From: a virus
Virus record (IMG/VR): IMGVR_UViG_3300024433_000058
Span: 1-22,863 of that record
Length of the DNA: 22,863 nucleotides
Reading direction: 5' to 3' (one strand)
The position numbers were made by a program, and so were the translations under genes. The notes under the pieces are model-generated. The model was not told the origin of the DNA. It saw only the letters and a list, made by a program, of their open reading frames with translations, and made no database searches. Each line of letters starts with the position of its first letter. Position 1 is the first letter of the stretch. Below, piece after piece: positions 1,542 to 22,863 of the stretch.

Positions 1542-1952
1542 TTATAATGCTTTTATCATTTCTGTAGTGTAACTATCTCCTTGCGTATACCCTAATCTTT
1601 TGTACACTTCAATTAATGGTTTACTCTTTATCAATGCGTACACATATTTGTGTCCCGACTTTTTGCATATCTCTGTTAACGATTCAATCAAGCCCTCAAG
1701 TGCTTGACTTCTCTCAGGTTTTTTTCGGTAATTTTTATTAGAAATTATCCAATCAACCCAAGCAACTCCTGAATTAGTTGTGTAGGTAAATCCTGCACAA
1801 ATGGGAGTTTCATCATCTAAAACCATCATACCACCCACTCCATTTAGCGGGAGGAAGTCTTTTTTTGGCGGTTCCCACCCCCAATCTTGCCACCAATCAG
1901 TCAGAATTTCATCGTAATCAGTGTCTATTAATGGTCTTATTTTTAACGACAT
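1542..1952 (-). CDS. GNAT-like N-acetyltransferase
   Basis: A 136-aa protein that fits a compact GNAT fold. It has an N-terminal strand MSLKIRPLIDTDYDEI. A central strand then runs into an acetyl-CoA-loop-like segment (VDWIISNKNYRKKPERSQAL, about residues 70-89) followed by an amphipathic helix. The C-terminal YKRLGY block resembles the usual 'YekhGF' motif B. The pyrophosphate loop is degenerate compared with the canonical R/Q-x-x-G-x-G/A: it has basic residues but lacks the glycines. Activity is therefore uncertain. GNAT enzymes transfer an acetyl group from acetyl-CoA to an amine on a protein or small molecule; the substrate here is unknown. The gene sits between tail and ejection protein genes and has a promoter-like box just upstream, so it is expressed late and could modify a virion or host protein. 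Confidence 0.65.
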   Translation of the reverse strand: MSLKIRPLIDTDYDEILTDWWQDWGWEPPKKDFLPLNGVGGMMVLDDETPICAGFTYTTNSGVAWVDWIISNKNYRKKPERSQALEGLIESLTEICKKSGHKYVYALIKSKPLIEVYKRLGYTQGDSYTTEMIKAL

Positions 1953-1974: not shown

Positions 1975-2790
1975 TTAAGGATAAGATTTCATCACCTCAG
2001 ACTCCACTGCAAACAACTCACTTGGGTTCTGTGCTTTGCCCACAGGAAGTTCTACGGTAAACTGACAATAGTGTCCCAATACCCCGTGAGATTCTGCAAT
2101 TGGATTCTTGATATACAAGTAGTACGCATCTTGAATCGGGATGGGACCTACCACACCCGGCAGAGTTGTATCGATGTAAATTCTATTTATTCCATTTGGC
2201 TTATTCACACTAATTTGTGTGACCTCACCCGCAAACTGCGGGGTATCGTATGGTGGCACTGCAAAATACAAGTAGTCACCAACACTAATGATGCTTCCAA
2301 TATTAATAGCCAAGCCAAAGTTTATCTCTGCAGAAATAAAAGGAACTTCAACAATAGAAGTGCTACGGGCAATGCCATTCAAAGAACGCAGTTCCCATTC
2401 TGATTCATTTGTAGCAGCACCTGTTGGTCCATCGTTTCTAACAAACGCAAACCACGATGCTTCTTTTCTCTCAAACCAATCATCGTCAATATACCCTGTA
2501 GTTTGAATGTCTGTGAGTAGAGTGGTTTCCCAAGAATCATCTGACTCTAAGTTGATGGTTTTAAACAACTTGTTCTCAAGAGGTGATTCATTGAATACAC
2601 TCGTCAATGTAGAGGGGTAGTTTATACCATAGAATTGGTTGTATGTATTGTTTGTATTATGACGATACAAATTACCACCCTTCCAAGTATAGAAAAACTG
2701 ATTCATACCCATCATAAAATCAGGGTAGAATGAATAGAAAGAGGGAAACCCTTTCACTCCTTCGCTATATGTTATTGTGTAATCTGCCAT
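1975..2790 (-). CDS. Putative tail/muzzle-associated virion protein with FPSFYSFYPDFM signature
   Basis: A 271-aa protein rich in aromatic residues and beta structure. It opens with YSEGVKGFPSFYSFYPDFMM and then FYTWKGGNLYRHNTNNTYNQFYG. From memory, this kind of block (W/F-x-SF-YSF, then a short strand, then K-G-x-LY-x-HN and FYG) is found in large tail/muzzle ('stabilization') proteins of Bacteroidota short-tailed phages. Here it is a separate gene 5.5 kb of coding sequence downstream of the muzzle start. No transmembrane segment or enzymatic motif is visible. The start is ATG 2790, preceded by the palindrome and 16-mer module at 2793-2831, so this gene may have its own control. A tail role follows from signature and position; exact placement in the particle is unknown. 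Confidence 0.65.
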   Translation of the reverse strand: MADYTITYSEGVKGFPSFYSFYPDFMMGMNQFFYTWKGGNLYRHNTNNTYNQFYGINYPSTLTSVFNESPLENKLFKTINLESDDSWETTLLTDIQTTGYIDDDWFERKEASWFAFVRNDGPTGAATNESEWELRSLNGIARSTSIVEVPFISAEINFGLAINIGSIISVGDYLYFAVPPYDTPQFAGEVTQISVNKPNGINRIYIDTTLPGVVGPIPIQDAYYLYIKNPIAESHGVLGHYCQFTVELPVGKAQNPSELFAVESEVMKSYP

Positions 2791-2837: not shown

Positions 2838-3770
2838 TTATGGTGGACACGCTGCTATGCTTGTAATTACACCATTTACATCTACTGTAATTTCTTTTCT
2901 TCCTGATGGTGGGTCAATCGTATAGTCACCCGCAACTACTTTATTTAGACCATACACATCACGAACAAAGAACTCGTTCAATGCAGGTTCACCTGCCGTT
3001 CCACCACGATTAGGTACATTATAATAAGTGTTTGCCATAGGTGCAGCGTTACAATCCGCAGGGAACAATCCTGAAGTTAGAACACCTGTCAATTGCACAG
3101 GACAATTCACCTCTATATTGAAAGCCGTACCACCACAAGGACCAAACATTTCAACTGTGAAATCTTCAGGCGTAGCCACAGGCTTTGGAATGTAGAGCGT
3201 ACAATAATCAGGGTCGTTTGCCGTTAGTTGAACGTCACCTGCTGCTCCTGTTACCACACCCGAACTGCCTTGCAGCACAAATGTTGAGCCGTCCCACAAG
3301 TATTCGTTTTGACCTGAGTATCCACCGCCACTAAGTGCAGCAGCAATACTACAATCATTTGCAGTTCGTCCTACAAATGTGAAGTGGTTTGGACTTGCCG
3401 TACTTGCAAGGAAACCGTATACGGGACTCGTGAGTTCGTTGTAGGTGTTGCTATTGTATTGCACTCTGATACCATCAGGAATGCTGAATGGTTCAAAATA
3501 AACAATAGTACAACCTGTACTGTTTCCTGTATTAAAGTCAAGGGTATAAATACCTTGATTACCCGAAGTGTTGATTCCACTACCACAAGGGAATGTACAC
3601 GATGGGCACGTTTGCACAATACTAAGAATTCCACCTATCTGCTCCCTAACCGATGTACCATCAGCATACCACCCATCAGGTGCTGCAATGGTCATATCAG
3701 CGTCTGTAAACACTGCCGTAGCACTCGCTAATGTTGGTCCGTCTATGTAATAACTACCTAATGTTGCCAT
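2838..3770 (-). CDS. Putative virion/tail protein, Cys-rich
   Basis: A 310-aa protein that starts 11 bases after the muzzle-type gene ends. It begins MATLGSYYIDGPTLASATAV with VFTDADMTIAAPDGWYADGT following, a conserved-looking N-terminus that I associate with structural proteins of Bacteroidota phages but cannot name. It is Gly/Ser/Thr-rich and beta-like, with many cysteines (CPSCTFPC around residues 55-62, then scattered pairs) and ends in a small strand-rich domain (KEITVDVNGVITSIAACPP). A DCNAAP motif around residue 240 also occurs in the third muzzle repeat. There is no signal peptide. The likely role is a distal tail or adhesion component, inferred from position next to the muzzle gene; other structural roles are possible. 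Confidence 0.65.
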   Translation of the reverse strand: MATLGSYYIDGPTLASATAVFTDADMTIAAPDGWYADGTSVREQIGGILSIVQTCPSCTFPCGSGINTSGNQGIYTLDFNTGNSTGCTIVYFEPFSIPDGIRVQYNSNTYNELTSPVYGFLASTASPNHFTFVGRTANDCSIAAALSGGGYSGQNEYLWDGSTFVLQGSSGVVTGAAGDVQLTANDPDYCTLYIPKPVATPEDFTVEMFGPCGGTAFNIEVNCPVQLTGVLTSGLFPADCNAAPMANTYYNVPNRGGTAGEPALNEFFVRDVYGLNKVVAGDYTIDPPSGRKEITVDVNGVITSIAACPP

Positions 3771-3781
3771 ATCTATTTAAT

Positions 3782-6700
3782 TTATTCTATACATCCACAA
3801 CTTAATTGTGTTATTGTTACATCGAGTGGAACACCTGTTAACTCCCTTGCACAGAAAATAAACGAACCTCCGCTTTGTGGAATAATTACTGTGGTGGGGG
3901 TTCCATCACAATCAATGTAATCAACTGTCTCTTCTACTGTATTGTTGTTTGTAGCTTGAACGGTAAAGCAAACAGGGGCAGCATTACAATCCGTAACCAA
4001 CGGCTCTACCGTATAAGGACTAATCGTCACAGGGTCAGAAGTGTAAGAAACAACTTGCCAATTGCAACGCTGAGGGTCTGCATTATCAGAGATAAAGTCA
4101 CCAATGACTGCTCCGCCACCTGCAAAATCAATTACCTCTTCATTAACGATTCCATCAATTCTACACTGTCTTATCAAAAGGTTGCTTGGACAAGTACAAG
4201 AAAGAAATGCTATACCTGTACCCGCTACTTTTTGAATCTGCGTTGCACACACATCAAATGTTCCTCCATTTTCAATTAGTGGTGTAGTCTGTGGAAGCCC
4301 ATCACAATCGTTGTAATCTATCGTTAACGGAGCACCGCTAAAGTTTGAAAGTCTGTAGTAGTTACAGACTTGAGTACAATCAGTAACATCTGTTTCAACC
4401 GCATTCAATAAATCTGTTATTGGGTCTTGAGTTTGATACAACACCTCGTATCTACAAGCAGGGTCACTATTAAGAGACACAAAATCTCCTGTAGTAATTA
4501 ATCCTGCACCGTCAATTACTTCTTGTGCAGTAACGCCATCATCATCACATCTTTCAACTACCCAAGTATCGCCACAAGCACAATCTAACAACGTAAGAGT
4601 GATACCCGCATCAAGACTCTCTACCTCTCTCAAGCAAACAGTAGTGCTTTCTCCTGTTTCTAACGGTATGATTACACTATCAGGATAGCCACACGGTATA
4701 ATCTGTGCTTCTTGTTTTGGTATTGCTGAAGACTCAATTAAGTACATCAAACAAACATCATTACAATCTGTGATGTCTCCTCTAATTGTCGTCAAAGACG
4801 CAGTAGATGGCTCTTCACTCAATGCCGCTACTTGATACACACATCCGGGGTCAGTGTCAATTTCTACGAATTGTCCTACTGATACTCCAAGATTGTTTTC
4901 AGAAATGACACTTACTACAGGTGCAGATGGGTCGTGCTGACATTTTTCTAATAGCAATTGAGTTGATGCACAATTACAACAAGCATCGAACTCATCAATA
5001 GTTGAGTAACACAAGTCGGCTCCTGTAGCGTTTCTGTAGTTGTAAATAAAGTACAGATATTGGTCGTTACTTGTTGGCATTGTAAACGCAGCCTCGTAAG
5101 TAGGTGCGCCACCCGTAATTGGTGTTGCGTCACTTGCCGCAACCAACAATGCTGCCATATTAGCAGGAGTGTTGTTGTACAATGTAGCCGACCTTAGATA
5201 CTTAAATCCATCGGTTGAAGGATTAAATACAAAGTCATCAATAGGCGCAATCTTATTCGAAATAATCGAAATGACTGCACCATCAGCAGGGATGAATCCT
5301 GCACCTTGAGGTCCTGAAATCACATCGTATTGAGACACAAGTGGGTTCGTTGTTCCTGATACCAATTCAACAGGTGCTGAATGTAATGGAGAAATGTATG
5401 CCCCATCCACCCATCTGTACTCGTTGTGGATGAATTGACCTGCTTCATTATCGTTAGAGAAACAAACCTGAATAATGGTAATGGTTTGTGCTTCAGGACA
5501 ATTTACGGTAATCTGAACTTCAGCAGTTCCCAAAGTGGTAACATTGATGTCTATTGTGTCTACACTAACGGTGTCTTTGTCAACAAGGACACTGCCCGAC
5601 AATCCTGAGCCTACATATGCAGTGGCATTGTAAGTTGCCGTTACCGTAACTGCATCTCCTGATATAACATTAAACTGTACCTCTGTTTCTCCAACAAGGT
5701 ATCCTACATCTACACAGAAATCAGACGAGTCCGCAGAGGTCACAAACAATGTTCTTGAAATACCACATTCAATACATTCTGTAATTGATGGTAGCAGTTC
5801 ATCATTTGAACTCAAAACAAACTCATTCATATACGGGTCATACCCACCAAGTTTCTGAGTATTAAAGGATTCAAGGAACAAGTCTCTAAACCAAGAACGC
5901 ATCCCTGCTTCAGAGATGACACTTAGTTGTTCGTTTTGTCCTGCCGTTCCTTTTAGTTGGATTACCGCACCTCGTTTAGCATCGGTAAAGAACTTATCGT
6001 ATCCCCACTTTGCATAACTCTCAGGATGGAAACTGATTCCATATTCTTCGGTTCTTGCAACCTGAGTACCCAACACTTGTGGAACCGATGCTACCGTGCT
6101 TTCCCCTGTAGAGTCTGTAAGTAAATTCTTACCCGCCAATACAAAAGAAATCTTGTCTTCTTGTAGCGTAAGAATATCTGTCTCTCTACCATCAAGTTTG
6201 TAAACAGGACCGTAACTGTCTTCCAATGGCTTAAAGTTTAGTAAGCCAAGGTTGAACTCGTTTAGTTTGTTTACGTTACTCTCATCGTTGTATACACCGC
6301 TATAGGTGAGGTCAGCAAATCTTCTAATCTCTCCGTAGTCTTGAGCAGAAGTAGTGGTAACCCTGTTACCCAACAACAACTCTTTGGTATCTACAAAGTC
6401 TCTAATCTGATAACTCTCTACTCCATTACCAAATGCATAGCAGTTAAAGAACTGCGTATCCACAATAGCAGGAGTAGAGCCTGTTTGGTTTTGCACATTT
6501 CCTTCGTGGTATCCTGTAGCGGTATCGATAGGGTATGATACTGAAGATTCATACCACACATCAGGAGCAGCGTCTTGAGGTTCTGTTTCAAATACCATTA
6601 AAGCGGTACTTCTGACAACCTCAATAGATACTTTTAAAGTGGTCTTTTTCTTTTTTCCGCTATACCCTTCGGAACTTCTCACACCGAACTGAGTTCTACC

Positions 6701-9325
6701 TCCGAAGGTTCTAAAGAAAGAAGAGATTTTATCCGCGCCACAAGATTGGAAACCACCATTCAATACATTGTTATAATTAGGTCCTGTAACACCTGTACCA
6801 TCGGTAATTGCTTGTGCTTCTAATGCCGCGGCGATATTGTCGCCATCAAACCAATCCTTAAAATTGGCATACTCTTGAGATGCCGTAAATGTAGCATCAA
6901 CAAACCATTTCTTTGGAGGCACATTGCCTAAAAATGAATCTAAATTTCCTCGTCTAAAGTTGTCTATAACTATGGTAATACGAGAACCCGCAGGTATCGT
7001 ATAATCAATATAGGTTCCGGGGGTGGCAGGGTCTTCTCTATCTACATAATAGAATACATCTCTACAACCGCTTCCTGAACTACTTACTTCTCCATAGTTT
7101 ACAACAGGCAAGTCACCTACTGTTGTGGCAAATTGCGTGGCTCTAATTTTCATATACACCCCCGCAGGTACAGGAATCTCTACTCCTGTAGCGTCCACAG
7201 GGCGTGGGTCCAAGAAGTCTGATGACTGCGCTTTCTTTTCTAATACCGATGCATAAGCACACCGTGGAAGTGCTCCGTTCGTATCTGCCTTAACAATAAG
7301 CAAATCACCCTCTTCAACCTTTCTTGAGTTCTGCCCTTCAAGTAGGAAATAATCCGCACTTGATGTGGGGTCCCTAAAGAATAGAGAACTGTAAACGGTA
7401 AAGTAATTTTCTTTATCTGCTTTTACCGCAAATTTGTATCGTGTTGCCCAACTTGGTGCAAGTTGAGTAGTCGGTATAGTTACCCTGATGTTATTTGCTA
7501 CATCAGATAAACTACAAGGAACGTGAACAGTATTATTCTCACTTACCAAAGCCGTAGTAGCACGATTAAACTCGTCCATATAGATGATACCTACCTCGTA
7601 ACTTCTATTAGTATGCAAACTTTTAGGGTCGCCTAAACTTTGATATGATGCAGACACAAAAGTGGTGCTATAGTATTCGTATGCCCATTGCGTAATTGCC
7701 AATGGGTCATCTACATACCTCATAAATGGCAATTGGAACCCTATCTCTGTAGATGCGGGTGACGTAATGATTGCAATAGGCTCGTTTGGAGCGTTAATTC
7801 CTGACTCAAATTTTTCAAGCGCATCCAATGTAGTTGGCACAGAACAATTAAACAGGTCTGTTAATGTTGTTCCTACACCACAATTTGCAACCGTTTGAAT
7901 ATTTGCAATAGTGCCTATTTTTTCAGTAAAATCTACACTTGTTGCAAGGTCATATGGACTTGCAAAATCTTGATTCAAGATGTACTGAAAGTTTATCTCT
8001 GTCTCTGCAGTAGTAGCAGCCGGTGGGTTTGGTCCTGTAAAGTTGAAGTGTTTAAATCGAAATTGAATATCAATAACTGCTCCTGCAACTAAGCCAATAC
8101 CATTAAAATCAAGAGAAAATATTCCATTGACCACCGTGTTTACACCATCAACATTATAAGTACCATCAGATGCTGAATCAGGAACTGCCTCTAATCCAAT
8201 TGCCTTTGATACAAGTTCTGTGGTGTATTCAAGTTTTGTTGGGAATCCCCCAAGAGTTATAATATCGTACTGCTCCAAATAGTTACCATACACCAATCTA
8301 TTGCCCATCATTGTTTGAGCCTTAGCGAGTCTTGGCACATTATCGTATAGCCTAAGAATCTCACTCTCAGGAAGCACGGTAAATATTTTACTATTACTGA
8401 ATGTGTAGGTGTAGTTGGTATTATTTAAAAGACCTAAATCATCTTTGTTTAGTTTCTCAATAACACGAATACTTCCTGTTTGCATATCCTTCCAAAGAAG
8501 GTCAATTCCTTTCACAAGAGGACCGCCTGAGTTATAGGTTAGGGTTGAAACATTTGTGATGTTAAGCATCCCCGTATTACCACCTGTGGCAAAATCATAT
8601 CTAAAAGCCCCCGGCAAAAACGATGGATTAGAAAACTGAGAGGTTGCTGAATACTCTCCATCTTCATATCTGTATCTATATCCAAAGGATACAAATCGGT
8701 CTTCCAAGAAGTTGTTCTGTGAAGCGGTACTGATTGGTGTAACGGTCAAAGAGTTTACAGGTGGTTTCTTGATAACAAGAAGGTCTTCTGCAATAATACC
8801 ATCTGTTGTGCCTACAGGGTTTGGATAGTTTCTTTTTATATTGATAAATCTTGGAGGATTGTAATCATCCGTCCAAAACAACAACTCATTGTCTACAAGG
8901 TTAACACCCGTGATGAGGTATTGTTTGTCAAAATTTAGAACCGTGTCTGTTCCACCGCCATCATTAATACTAATAACGTGATACGTCAGTACATTGGTTT
9001 GTACATTCAAAGAAACAACTAAGTCAATTTTTCCTGTTGGCGAAGTAACATATGATGAATCGGTTACAAACCAATAAAGGGTTTCATTTGCCCCATCTTC
9101 GTATGCGCCAATACATTTTGCCGCACTCGATAGCGGTACACCGTTGTAAGAAAGAGTAGTAAGTTTAGTATTACCCTTACTATTTTCTACGGAACCAACC
9201 TCTGAGTCTTCGGTAGAGCCAAGGCGGACATTGAGTGCATCAACGTACTCTCCATTAGGAACAAGTCTCTCATCGAGACTTTTATTCATCCTACCTAAAA
9301 CAAAATTTCTTGACGTATTTGCCAT
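3782..9325 (-). CDS. Giant tail muzzle / stabilization-type protein
   Basis: 1847 aa, the largest gene here. The N-terminus (NFVLGRMNKSLDERLVPNGE, then YVDALNVRLGSTEDSEVGSV and ENSKGNT) matches the style of muzzle or 'stabilization' proteins of crAss-like and related short-tailed phages: a G-M-N-x-D-x-x-L-x-P-x-x-Y-x-x-A-x-N-x-R start followed by a G-x-V-E-N-x-x-G-N block. Residues about 1-1150 are beta-rich. Around 1190-1300 there is an Ig-like stretch of alternating Val/Thr strands. The C-terminus from about 1454 is a triple Cys-rich repeat. The protein probably forms the nozzle below the ring proteins that holds the DNA channel and contacts the cell surface. It starts one base after the stop of the 307-aa ring gene and is followed after 11 bases by the 310-aa gene, so it is within a tail operon. 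The muzzle name is inferred; a large structural tail protein is near certain. Confidence 0.75.
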   Translation of the reverse strand: MANTSRNFVLGRMNKSLDERLVPNGEYVDALNVRLGSTEDSEVGSVENSKGNTKLTTLSYNGVPLSSAAKCIGAYEDGANETLYWFVTDSSYVTSPTGKIDLVVSLNVQTNVLTYHVISINDGGGTDTVLNFDKQYLITGVNLVDNELLFWTDDYNPPRFINIKRNYPNPVGTTDGIIAEDLLVIKKPPVNSLTVTPISTASQNNFLEDRFVSFGYRYRYEDGEYSATSQFSNPSFLPGAFRYDFATGGNTGMLNITNVSTLTYNSGGPLVKGIDLLWKDMQTGSIRVIEKLNKDDLGLLNNTNYTYTFSNSKIFTVLPESEILRLYDNVPRLAKAQTMMGNRLVYGNYLEQYDIITLGGFPTKLEYTTELVSKAIGLEAVPDSASDGTYNVDGVNTVVNGIFSLDFNGIGLVAGAVIDIQFRFKHFNFTGPNPPAATTAETEINFQYILNQDFASPYDLATSVDFTEKIGTIANIQTVANCGVGTTLTDLFNCSVPTTLDALEKFESGINAPNEPIAIITSPASTEIGFQLPFMRYVDDPLAITQWAYEYYSTTFVSASYQSLGDPKSLHTNRSYEVGIIYMDEFNRATTALVSENNTVHVPCSLSDVANNIRVTIPTTQLAPSWATRYKFAVKADKENYFTVYSSLFFRDPTSSADYFLLEGQNSRKVEEGDLLIVKADTNGALPRCAYASVLEKKAQSSDFLDPRPVDATGVEIPVPAGVYMKIRATQFATTVGDLPVVNYGEVSSSGSGCRDVFYYVDREDPATPGTYIDYTIPAGSRITIVIDNFRRGNLDSFLGNVPPKKWFVDATFTASQEYANFKDWFDGDNIAAALEAQAITDGTGVTGPNYNNVLNGGFQSCGADKISSFFRTFGGRTQFGVRSSEGYSGKKKKTTLKVSIEVVRSTALMVFETEPQDAAPDVWYESSVSYPIDTATGYHEGNVQNQTGSTPAIVDTQFFNCYAFGNGVESYQIRDFVDTKELLLGNRVTTTSAQDYGEIRRFADLTYSGVYNDESNVNKLNEFNLGLLNFKPLEDSYGPVYKLDGRETDILTLQEDKISFVLAGKNLLTDSTGESTVASVPQVLGTQVARTEEYGISFHPESYAKWGYDKFFTDAKRGAVIQLKGTAGQNEQLSVISEAGMRSWFRDLFLESFNTQKLGGYDPYMNEFVLSSNDELLPSITECIECGISRTLFVTSADSSDFCVDVGYLVGETEVQFNVISGDAVTVTATYNATAYVGSGLSGSVLVDKDTVSVDTIDINVTTLGTAEVQITVNCPEAQTITIIQVCFSNDNEAGQFIHNEYRWVDGAYISPLHSAPVELVSGTTNPLVSQYDVISGPQGAGFIPADGAVISIISNKIAPIDDFVFNPSTDGFKYLRSATLYNNTPANMAALLVAASDATPITGGAPTYEAAFTMPTSNDQYLYFIYNYRNATGADLCYSTIDEFDACCNCASTQLLLEKCQHDPSAPVVSVISENNLGVSVGQFVEIDTDPGCVYQVAALSEEPSTASLTTIRGDITDCNDVCLMYLIESSAIPKQEAQIIPCGYPDSVIIPLETGESTTVCLREVESLDAGITLTLLDCACGDTWVVERCDDDGVTAQEVIDGAGLITTGDFVSLNSDPACRYEVLYQTQDPITDLLNAVETDVTDCTQVCNYYRLSNFSGAPLTIDYNDCDGLPQTTPLIENGGTFDVCATQIQKVAGTGIAFLSCTCPSNLLIRQCRIDGIVNEEVIDFAGGGAVIGDFISDNADPQRCNWQVVSYTSDPVTISPYTVEPLVTDCNAAPVCFTVQATNNNTVEETVDYIDCDGTPTTVIIPQSGGSFIFCARELTGVPLDVTITQLSCGCIE
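3785..4966 (-). repeat. Three tandem 8-cysteine protein repeats (C-terminus of the muzzle-type protein)
   Basis: Encodes residues 1454-1585, 1586-1713 and 1714-1847, three units of 132, 128 and 134 aa. Each has eight cysteines in register. The spacings between successive cysteines are 33/31/33, 26/26/26, 4/4/6, 20/20/20, 19/19/19, 18/17/18 and 2/2/2. Shared motifs are EVID..G....GDF, a DP-x-C segment, TDC-x(3-5)-C, a DY-x-DCDG-x-P segment in units 2 and 3, and a terminal C-x-C. DNA similarity between units is low, so the duplication is old or the fold is under constraint. A CCNC just before unit 1 may be the end of a worn fourth unit. Confidence 0.85.
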
Positions 9326-19454: not shown

Positions 19455-19713
19455 AACCTTGTTTTGTATTTACTTTCTCATTTACAACCACTCCATCGTT
19501 TAATGCTTCTTTCTCTTCTTCAATCCTTTTGAGGATTTCAAAAGCATCGAATATTGCTAACTTTTTGGTTGCAGCAGCATTCTTTAATCTGTCTGCAGCC
19601 AAATCGTCTTCAGGATTAGGTTTGATGATTTCTTCTTTAGCAACCTTAATCAGTTGCTCCACCGCTCTGTGTCCCGCTTCGATTATTTTTTTCTTTATTT
19701 CTTTTGAATTCAT
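19432..19713 (-). CDS. Possible terminase small subunit
   Basis: 93 aa, almost entirely helical and highly charged. The N-terminus (MNSKEIKKKIIEAGHRAVEQ) is lysine-rich and could be a small DNA-contacting helical unit. The middle, with LKNAAATKKLAIFDAFEILK, could be an oligomerising helix pair, and the C-terminus is basic (FAERRSK). It overlaps terL by 23 bases and begins inside the stop of the upstream gene (ATGA). Small terminase subunits recognise the packaging start on viral DNA and are usually encoded immediately before terL, so position is the main argument. No clear helix-turn-helix can be read by eye. It could be another small packaging accessory. Confidence 0.45.
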   Translation of the reverse strand: MNSKEIKKKIIEAGHRAVEQLIKVAKEEIIKPNPEDDLAADRLKNAAATKKLAIFDAFEILKRIEEEKEALNDGVVVNEKVNTKQGFAERRSK

Positions 19714-20273
19714 AACACTAATGTTACTGCGTGGTCAAAAATCCTATACATCAAAGCATCGTCAACTCTAAACTCGTATTCACTTTCAGGTTTGAAAGAA
19801 ACTATATCTCCAACCTTAACGCCTTGTTTTTCTAACGACTCATTCAATATAGTCATTTTTCCCATTAAAGGCTCGTGAGAAAAAGGCTTGTGGATGTAAC
19901 TGTCTTCTGCGGGAATAGGTTCAACAAAGCAAAATCTATCATACCCATACCATTCTTCATCGTTCTTGTAGGCAAAGAGTTGGTCGTAGTCAATCAAGAA
20001 AATGTTTTCCTTGAGAAAACTCTTACCGCTTTTTCTCCTGCCCTTCATATCGTTGTAGAACTTGAACACATTATGATGTACCAAAATGGTACTCCCCTCT
20101 TTAATGGGTCCACTGTAACTCAGTGGTGTGGCAATGACTTTTGCTTCTCGATTCGCAAATCGAAAATCTTCTTCCGAAGTATTTACAACAAAGTCAATAC
20201 CTGCAATATTCTTTGTGTTGTTGTACCTACTGTCTCCCATTGGAGACACTATGAATTGATTTATAGATTTCAT
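19710..20273 (-). CDS. Putative co-chaperonin with two GroES-like domains
   Basis: 187 aa. Residues 1-100 follow the GroES plan. A first strand (INQFIVSP) is followed by a mobile-loop-like NNTKNIAGIDFVV (compare TKSAGGIVL of GroES). Next come AKVIATP (compare GEVLAVG), IKEGSTILVHHNVF (compare VKVGDIVIF) and IFLIDYDQLFAYK (compare VLIMSESDILAIVE). Residues about 105-187 repeat the plan, with RFCFVEPI, then MGKMTIL, GVKVGDIVSFKP, EYEFRVDDALMYRI and AVTLVL, but the loop region differs. GroES caps the GroEL chamber; phage versions (T4 Gp31) allow folding of bulky capsid proteins. The gene is within the packaging/head cluster, overlapping the next gene by four bases. The comparison is by eye, so other small beta-barrel folds remain possible. 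Confidence 0.6.
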   Translation of the reverse strand: MKSINQFIVSPMGDSRYNNTKNIAGIDFVVNTSEEDFRFANREAKVIATPLSYSGPIKEGSTILVHHNVFKFYNDMKGRRKSGKSFLKENIFLIDYDQLFAYKNDEEWYGYDRFCFVEPIPAEDSYIHKPFSHEPLMGKMTILNESLEKQGVKVGDIVSFKPESEYEFRVDDALMYRIFDHAVTLVL

Positions 20274-20694: not shown

Positions 20695-21309
20695 TTACAC
20701 ACCTATCTTGTAGATGAATACATCTGCTGATGGTACGTTACTCCAACCACCTAATACAGTATGAGTATATAGTCCACCTCCATTTACTCCTGAACTGTCT
20801 CTCATAATCTCCCAAGTCAACACATCTCCTGCACTTACTTGTATAGGAATGGTCAGTTCATAAGGGAACATAAGACCTGTGCCTGATAAGTCAACACCTT
20901 TTGTTCGACTTACTTGAGCACCGTTTAATAATATTCTAAATAAAGTAACCGTTACACCGCCTGAAGAACCTTGTCTCTCAAAGTTACTGTAACCATTAAA
21001 TAGATAAAGACCTGCTTGATTAAATGTAATGTTTCCAAGAGCGTCTAACTGAACAGGGTCTGAAGGTCCATTTTGTGCAGGACCAAAGGTTACCTGCAAT
21101 GGTGTATCTAATCCTGCAGGTTCTTGGTTGGTAGTATCCGTTGCTGATAATACTTGAGTTACTCCAAGATTCAGAGTTGATTTAGTATATGCAGAGATAG
21201 AATCGATTCGATAGTTCTTGGTGATGTTTGCATCATCGGCATCACTACCAATTAAAATATCTAATCCATTTACACTACTGTCTACGGGGTATGTACTAAT
21301 TCGTGCCAT
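20695..21309 (-). CDS. Putative tail fibre / receptor-binding protein, C1q/TNF-like C-terminus
   Basis: 204 aa. The N-terminal 40 residues (MARISTYPVDSSVNGLDILI, then GSDADDANITKNYRIDSI) resemble a virion-attachment segment common at the start of Bacteroidota and marine phage fibre proteins. Residues about 60-204 are a strand-rich jelly-roll like C1q/TNF trimers: LDALGNITFNQAGLYLFNGY corresponds to the typical 'F.i...G.Y.f' C1q strand pair, with TVTLFRILLNGAQV and FPYELTIPIQVSAGDVLTWE following. Such domains form compact trimeric tips that bind host surface sugars or proteins. The start overlaps the end of the S74 fibre gene by 14 bases, so both fibre components are probably made together. 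Family assignment is by pattern only. Confidence 0.68.
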   Translation of the reverse strand: MARISTYPVDSSVNGLDILIGSDADDANITKNYRIDSISAYTKSTLNLGVTQVLSATDTTNQEPAGLDTPLQVTFGPAQNGPSDPVQLDALGNITFNQAGLYLFNGYSNFERQGSSGGVTVTLFRILLNGAQVSRTKGVDLSGTGLMFPYELTIPIQVSAGDVLTWEIMRDSSGVNGGGLYTHTVLGGWSNVPSADVFIYKIGV

Positions 21310-22863
21310 TCTTCAATTCGTTTATTTCTGCCTTTAGTTCTTGAATTGCTTTTACAAGCACAGGAATAAGTACAGATGGTGCTGCCCAATATTGGTCAGC
21401 GTTTGTTTTGTCTACAAGTTTATGTAAGATGTCTTCTACACTGTATTCACTTCTGACAGAGTCCAACTCTTGAGCCACAAATCCCACGTCCTTGTATCCT
21501 TTCATTGACTCATCTCTTCTGTCCCAATCCCAACTAACAGGATTCAAGTCCATCAAAAAGTCAACTCCCAATCCTAAAGGTTGGATGTTTGTTTTATCTC
21601 TTTGGTCTGATAGTGCGGAGATAACAGGGGTGTTACAACGAAGTGTTGTAACAAATCCATCACCTAACACAACCTCATCATTTCCCAACGCTTTTGCATC
21701 CTTACCAAGACAAGTAGTGTTTGATGCGGTTGTCAAACCGTTTCCTGCACCTTTTCCAACTGCAGTGTTGTTCACCCCGCCTACAATATCAAATCCTGCA
21801 TCATTACCTACGGCAGTATTGTATTCTCCATTTCCTGTTTTAGACAAAGCACCGTATCCCATAGCCACATTGAAACTACCTGTGAAAGAAGCAGCTGTAT
21901 CTGTCATTGAGAGTCCACCAACGGTGATATTTCCTTCTCCGTTATTTCTCTGTTGAGACTCAAATCCAATAGCGATATTATGAATACCTCCGGATGTTAA
22001 CTCACGACTCTTATTGCCAATTGCAATGTTTTGTTGTTTTACAGTTATACCAATCAATGCGCTGTTCCAATCTGCTCTTGTTCCAATAGCAATATTGTCG
22101 TTATCTCCAACATTATATTCTCCCCCTGATTCTTTTCCTATGGCAATGTTGCGGTCACCGTAAGCATTATCAAGGGCGTTATCTCCTATAGCAATGTTGT
22201 CGAATCCACCACTTTGATAATATGCTGCATTACCAATCCCGACATTTCTGTCTACGGACCAATTATTCAAAACACTATAAGGTCGTAATCTATGACCTGC
22301 TTGATGCCCAATAAAAGTGTTTAAAGACGCTCCTTGAAAGGTACCTGCTGCTTGTCCGGGTTGTACAGTGAAAGACGAATGCCCAAGTGCGGTGTTATAG
22401 GACACACCTATAGCATTACCATTAATTGTATTACTACCTATATTAGAGCCGACAATGGTATTAAAGTTGAATTGCTCTTCAATGCTTTCATCATTAAGAG
22501 TATTAGCACCAATTACAGTATTGCTCTGACAGAATGATGCCAAACTAAATCCTGCATTGTATCCAACGCCTACATTGTTTGATTGGTTCTTTAGATTGGT
22601 CAATGCATAAGCACCAAGAGCCGTATTGCCACTATTGTTATCGGTACCCGCAACAGTATCAGAAAGACTCCTGAGTGCTGATGAACCGATTGCAGTATTG
22701 TACCAAGAAACTTTACCGTTCCAAGCTACACCACCAAACATAGCCTGATGTCCAATAGCAACGCTCTCTCTTGCATTGAATTGGTGGTATTGTGCCTGAT
22801 AACCAATAACAGTATTCTTAAACCAACTGCTCAAAGCGTTACCACCTGCTTCAACCCCAATAT
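21296..22863 (-). CDS. Tail fibre with YadA-head-like repeats and S74 chaperone domain (5' end outside window)
   Basis: The frame is open to the right edge; nine codons beyond TTG 22834 read IGVEAGGNA and continue the repeat, so that TTG is not the start. The visible 521 residues hold many NxAIGxxA-type units spaced about 20-30 residues (NIAIGKESGG, NIAIGTRADW, NIAIGNKSRE, NTAVGNDAG, NTAVGKGAG), as in the left-handed beta-roll heads of trimeric YadA-type adhesins. The last ~104 residues, from SDQRDKTNI at 21610 downward, are an intramolecular chaperone of peptidase S74 type. Conserved features include the S-D-x-R-x-K start, FVAQELD and a final coiled coil QELKAEINELKNG. S74 domains help the fibre trimerise and usually cut themselves off before the serine. 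This is the likely host-recognition fibre. Confidence 0.9.
   Translation of the reverse strand, partial: IGVEAGGNALSSWFKNTVIGYQAQYHQFNARESVAIGHQAMFGGVAWNGKVSWYNTAIGSSALRSLSDTVAGTDNNSGNTALGAYALTNLKNQSNNVGVGYNAGFSLASFCQSNTVIGANTLNDESIEEQFNFNTIVGSNIGSNTINGNAIGVSYNTALGHSSFTVQPGQAAGTFQGASLNTFIGHQAGHRLRPYSVLNNWSVDRNVGIGNAAYYQSGGFDNIAIGDNALDNAYGDRNIAIGKESGGEYNVGDNDNIAIGTRADWNSALIGITVKQQNIAIGNKSRELTSGGIHNIAIGFESQQRNNGEGNITVGGLSMTDTAASFTGSFNVAMGYGALSKTGNGEYNTAVGNDAGFDIVGGVNNTAVGKGAGNGLTTASNTTCLGKDAKALGNDEVVLGDGFVTTLRCNTPVISALSDQRDKTNIQPLGLGVDFLMDLNPVSWDWDRRDESMKGYKDVGFVAQELDSVRSEYSVEDILHKLVDKTNADQYWAAPSVLIPVLVKAIQELKAEINELKNGTN

Follow-up and report, generated by a model that had tools for sequence, protein, structure and literature searches.

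The window analysed here is a 22,863-nucleotide stretch of viral DNA, positions 1 to 22,863 of IMG/VR record IMGVR_UViG_3300024433_000058. Its minus strand carries a long gene for a muzzle homologue and two smaller genes, whose products are called p310 and p271. The features are as follows, with positions given in the window and related loci numbered with the prefix L throughout.

3782..9325, minus strand: muzzle homologue, N-terminal chain of the split muzzle, 1847 aa (P0001; PF25731, phrog_14478)
5810..9325, minus strand: conserved muzzle body, residues 1-1172 (hhalign and blastp against elemovirus gp25)
4970..5809, minus strand: extra region at the split, residues 1173-1452 (not in elemovirus gp25; kept in the lineage and in phi13:2 gp120)
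4574..4966, minus strand: unit 1, residues 1454-1584 (A domain 4772-4966, B domain 4574-4771)
4190..4573, minus strand: unit 2, residues 1585-1712 (A domain 4385-4573, B domain 4190-4384; modelled with AlphaFold2)
3785..4189, minus strand: unit 3, residues 1713-1847 (A domain 3995-4189, B domain 3785-3994)
2838..3770, minus strand: p310, the next gene (conserved N-terminal ~58 aa and exchangeable C-terminus)
1975..2790, minus strand: p271, C-terminal chain of the split muzzle, crAss_MUZ_C (PF25729; alignment to the end of gp25)

A portal and a large terminase subunit are also encoded in the window. Near the large terminase gene, a 187-aa protein (19713-20273, minus strand) matches PHROG 13932 (co-chaperonin GroES). 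A protein resembling tail spikes, which contains an intramolecular chaperone domain of the Peptidase_S74 type, is encoded at 21296-22834 (minus strand). A 136-aa acetyltransferase-like gene (1542-1952, minus strand) lies amid the tail genes. In MW202828 a small gene like it, annotated as an N-terminal acetyltransferase complex subunit, comes after the muzzle genes, and elemovirus gp24, which also follows the muzzle, is a look-alike of it.

Residues 5-233 of the 1847-aa protein match PF25731 (crAss_MUZ; E 8.5e-11, 41.1 bits against a cut-off of 27), and phrog_14478, a virion structural protein family, covers most of its body (E 2e-246). By sequence, this protein is a crAss-type muzzle homologue, and both matches bear out the initial annotation, which had called it muzzle-type. 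About 80 relatives of it were found in IMG/VR. Flavobacterium, Cellulophaga, Maribacter and Tenacibaculum are the hosts of those muzzle relatives that are in culture, which makes a host among the Bacteroidota likely. The muzzle of phicrAss001, gp44, forms a hexamer that gates the tail tip and has variable insertions exposed at its surface; contact with the cell surface has been suggested for it, and its length variation affects surface properties (PMC10172136).

The C-terminal end of the protein (residues 1454-1847) consists of three repeats with eight cysteines each. These stand at residues 1462, 1495, 1521, 1525, 1545, 1564, 1582 and 1584 in unit 1 (spacings 33-26-4-20-19-18-2), at 1593, 1624, 1650, 1654, 1674, 1693, 1710 and 1712 in unit 2 (31-26-4-20-19-17-2), and at 1721, 1754, 1780, 1786, 1806, 1825, 1843 and 1845 in unit 3 (33-26-6-20-19-18-2). 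The distances of 26, 20 and 19 are thus identical in all three units, as had been noted at the outset, and the last spacing of 2 (CxC) is likewise invariant. Global alignments between the units gave identities of 27.8%, 32.0% and 39.8%, with 7, 7 and 8 cysteines in register and scores of 13.9, 14.2 and 20.3 SD over shuffled sequences. These scores (14-20 SD) reject a chance periodicity and, together with the cysteine positions, confirm that the three repeats are in register. The DCDG-x-P segments that had been pointed out are present in units 2 and 3 and absent from unit 1.

An iterated profile search over 129 related loci, some of which overlap, yielded about 150 unit matches. In many of the relatives the last 71 aa or so correspond to the second half of a unit alone, with exactly six cysteines, and by inspection L008 and L046 end in the first half alone. 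Tails with A only, B only and AB are therefore all found, which indicates that the unit is a domain A with two cysteines (C1, C2) followed by a domain B with six (C3-C8). The initial annotation had described one eight-cysteine module; at the sequence level this is to be corrected to two domains, each of which also occurs by itself. AlphaFold2 predicted unit 2 as all beta with a mean pLDDT of 95.8 and a pTM of 0.85, and the B domain alone with a pLDDT of 88.1 and a pTM of 0.72.

The cysteines are well conserved in relatives. In 36 whole units each of the eight reaches at least 90% conservation, and in 90 B domains thinned for near-identity each of the six is invariant or at least 90% conserved, with at least 82 of the 90 domains keeping all six, so the modules are under constraint. 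Where cysteines are lost, they are lost in pairs: C4 and C5 in unit 2 of L002 and in L047 (also L054), C6 and C8 in L102, C3 and C7 in L012 and L013, and C1 and C2 in two copies of L106. In L013 the remaining upstream cysteine is, by inspection, the last cysteine of p310. Apparent cysteine gaps in unit 5 of L102, in L122 and in L127 were ends clipped during extraction, and the full sequences have the CxC. The pairwise losses therefore imply a disulfide ladder (C1-C2, C3-C7, C4-C5, C6-C8) rather than a metal site. Support for the pairing is good, and for the exact C3-C7 link it is weaker, because the loss events are few and two degenerate copies in L106, which are without C3 and keep C7 and C8 beside extra cysteines, are left unexplained by the ladder.

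The cysteines had been described as a disulfide- or metal-style pattern, of which only the former part stands. Coordination of zinc or iron would suit the CxC and CxxxC spacings, which are known from metal sites, and the assembly of virions in the reducing cytoplasm. However, loss of a four-ligand site should take four cysteines and not C4 with C5, C6 with C8, or C3 with C7, and no conserved histidine column was seen in the alignments of the 36 units or the 90 B domains. We rejected a metal site on the pairwise losses and consider it very improbable. Such a pattern had also been thought unusual for a structural protein of this kind, but there is precedent in phicrAss001, a related virion in which disulfides hold the tail together and are present in tail and portal-vertex proteins (PMC10172136). 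The disulfides are presumed to exist in the virion here.

Profile searches with a unit against Pfam, PHROGs and PDB sequences gave weak, scattered matches, none of them convincing. The initial annotation knew of no named domain with this spacing, and no family covering the unit was found in these searches either. No match to the units was found by tblastn against 50,697 phage records or in the Big_9, cadherin-like and bacterial Ig families of Pfam, and a scan of genome contigs returned no cellular relative. PF13004 (BACON) matched neither the whole protein nor any of the 36 units at E up to 1. With Foldseek against the PDB, neither the unit nor the B domain alone had a match at E <0.001, while BFVD gave one match (E 8e-5), to a protein of 841 aa from an uncultured Caudovirales phage. 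The best structural likeness of the A domain, bearing on a possible OB-fold or SH3-like barrel, was PriA (4nl4; Z 4.9, rmsd 3.2, 65 residues), and for the B domain alone VIA ranked Ena1C first (Z 4.1, rmsd 2.8, 62 residues), with the unrelated TRAP tied at Z 4.0; both likenesses are too weak for fold assignment. Like the Bacillus endospore appendage Ena subunits (PDB 9t3p, 7a02), the B domain is predicted to be a small, disulfide-rich beta-sandwich. Unlike them it shows no sequence similarity and would not be expected to form a donor-strand fibre, and a Z of 4 lies within the range of common arrangements. Profile and structure searches found no enzyme motif, carbohydrate-binding family or binding partner for the modules. 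A and B are thus domain families unnamed in Pfam and PHROGs, to which they could be added.

The position of the repeats becomes clear from comparison with muzzles that are one chain. Such a muzzle is elemovirus gp25, in which PF25729 lies at 1279-1350. By blastp, gp25 1-1216 corresponds to residues 1-1172 here, and hhalign pairs residues 1-1173 with gp25 1-1217 at a probability of 100. The remainder corresponds to p271, which has PF25729 at 48-119 (E 2.6e-18, 66.7 bits), matches the last 35 positions of PF25731 with its residues 3-37, and aligns to gp25 1237-1469 with residues 5-270 and to phicrAss001 gp44 1199-1284 with residues 3-89. In gp44, whose sequence we read by eye, a short turn alone separates the two halves; the turn has a few residues in gp44 and about 20 in gp25. 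From these alignments to the two halves, residues 1173-1847 and p310 thus occupy a break in the muzzle. Rather than forming a single continuous polypeptide, the chain is broken between residue 1172 and p271, and for this reason we use the name split muzzle homologue. The initial annotation, while right about the repeats, had missed that this tail sits where the muzzle splits into two genes and that modules are also carried by the next gene. The protein pair resembles gp44 in that its N-terminal 233 residues match PF25731 and p271 matches PF25729. It differs in being encoded by two genes, with about 675 aa and p310 at the break, and in having cysteine modules, which gp44 is without. The length variation of gp44 was reported in its crass and IG2 domains and not at the split site (PMC10172136).

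The split might have no function, with p271 and p310 being ordinary neighbouring tail genes and the modules a neutral C-terminal accretion. Domains are easily gained at C-termini, and p271 has no direct sequence match among solved structures, its link to gp44 being made through the crAss_MUZ_C profile and profile alignments. Yet the full length of p271 can be aligned with the end of gp25 and its start with gp44, all 68 of its homologues in the related loci are separate from the muzzle ORF, which represents a stable state, and the B domains retain their six cysteines as described above. We therefore hold this explanation to be extremely unlikely.

The muzzle gene of L046, L072-L076 and L081 has a second break, which falls after residue ~171 in window-protein numbering and near the position of the IG1 insertion in phicrAss001 gp44 (residues 163-292). 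The p271 homologue of L072-L074 and L076 has an extra N-terminal part of about 215 aa.

The extra region at the split, residues 1173-1452, ends in an ACCNC motif (residues 1448-1452), and the tails of relatives part ways just past the CCxC. Residues 5-1439 of P0001 align to gp120 of Cellulophaga phage phi13:2. In phi13:2, one of the Pachyviridae, the muzzle shows the same split into a long chain (gp120) and a crAss_MUZ_C protein (gp121), and the first chain bears an extra C-terminal array. The array of gp120, which matches Big_9, consists of Big_9/cadherin-like modules and another beta-domain, without the eight-cysteine pattern, and no p310 lies between gp120 and gp121. Culturable relatives with the same split muzzle thus exist. 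A tRNA-Cys was seen slightly downstream of the split muzzle genes of phi13:2 (NC_021803.1 63386-63457, L130).

Searches seeded with a unit (47 loci) gave muzzle tails and p310 homologues only. L117 appears to be a frameshifted muzzle contig and was not counted as a gene type of its own. The first ~58 residues of p310 are kept while the remainder is replaced in other phages, and in relatives its homologues carry B or AB units at their end. In L063, p310 is fused to the muzzle. A fusion of the two in the window by readthrough or frameshift was dropped, as the genes are 11 nt apart and in different frames.

A survey of copy number in related phages, which had been proposed earlier, gave a range of 0 to about 12. 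No unit copies were found in L003 and L080, one in L012, two in, for example, L060 and L068, three in the window, L111 and L113-L116, and six in L102, while the 3258-aa protein of L106 had twelve unit profile matches. Many relatives have zero modules or a single B, so the module is dispensable. The muzzle cores of L062 and L105 share 54% protein identity with a saturated dS of 2.5, whereas their tails have a dS of 0.32 and are 83-88% identical in DNA from the A1/B1 border into p310. The presence of a shared array on divergent cores therefore indicates that module arrays are exchanged, and the sequence pattern is that of recombination at a domain border. In L110/L112, dN was 0.082 in the tail against 0.010 in the core (8-fold) with equal dS. 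L113/L115 showed the reverse, the tail not being faster, and dN/dS of the tail was below 1 in all nine pairs tested. Since the tail is not always faster across these pairs, the dN rise in L110/L112 is only suggestive.

Taken with the split, these data lead us to propose that the modules are an exchangeable tail-tip adhesion or receptor-contact array placed at the split of a two-chain muzzle, a reading to which we assign a probability of roughly 0.62. The muzzle would be built from two polypeptides, the first ending in the turn and p271 resuming right after it. The break would free a C-terminus on each of the presumably six muzzle subunits, and this end would display a spacer region of Ig size together with A/B modules in varying number, with p310 drawing on the same module pool. 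The repeats would form a string of alternating small beta-domains, A with one disulfide and B with three, presumably exposed on the outside of the virion at its tail tip. Copy number and module identity would change as modules are duplicated, lost or recombined at domain borders, the disulfide ladder would permit surface residues to vary, and the array is predicted to contact the host surface or a receptor. This prediction is made because of the position, exchange and variability of the modules, which the phages probably swap to vary their grip on bacterial hosts. The external, stable and possibly surface-binding module envisaged in the initial annotation fits the exchange and copy-number data. 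Counting against the proposal are the searches that returned no enzyme motif, carbohydrate-binding family or binding partner, the dispensability of the module, the few cysteine-loss events and the tail dN/dS below 1.

A comparable arrangement is the BACON repeats of crAssphage, which form tandem arrays on tail proteins and spread by duplication and horizontal transfer, and which in bacteria are reported as linkers (PMC6949934). Both are tandem small beta-domains of varying copy number on a tail-associated protein. Unlike BACON, the present modules comprise two alternating disulfide-type domains, are carried by the muzzle and were not found in the bacterial genomes scanned. The linker role of this closest analogy lends some credit to a passive spacer or stalk, in which rigid rods hold p310 or tail fibres off the tip or stiffen the muzzle with no host contact; small beta-domains braced by disulfides would suit a stalk, and p310 follows the array even though nothing lies beyond it in the chain. 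However, a stalk formed by this terminal array would have no covalently attached cargo, and the zero-copy relatives also speak against it. Exchange between divergent phages and the raised tail dN of L110/L112 are better explained by contact with a target that varies. We consider a passive stalk unlikely, and favour the adhesion or receptor-contact array.

A more specific form of this proposal, to which we give even odds, is that a tail-tip gate protein has been cut at a beta-hairpin, with the second chain completing the fold in trans, and that the freed end serves Bacteroidota phages as a fixed docking site for swapped, disulfide-laddered adhesion modules of two unnamed families. The split would then show how a conserved gate protein gains a free end for variable parts while its core is undisturbed. 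Host recognition by crAss-like and related Bacteroidota phages is poorly known, and an exchangeable module array at the tail tip is a concrete candidate for a host-contact element.

The muzzle tails of L044, L055 and L069 (620-640 aa) contain long Pro-Ala linkers and other cysteine-rich modules unlike A or B, so yet more module types use this site.
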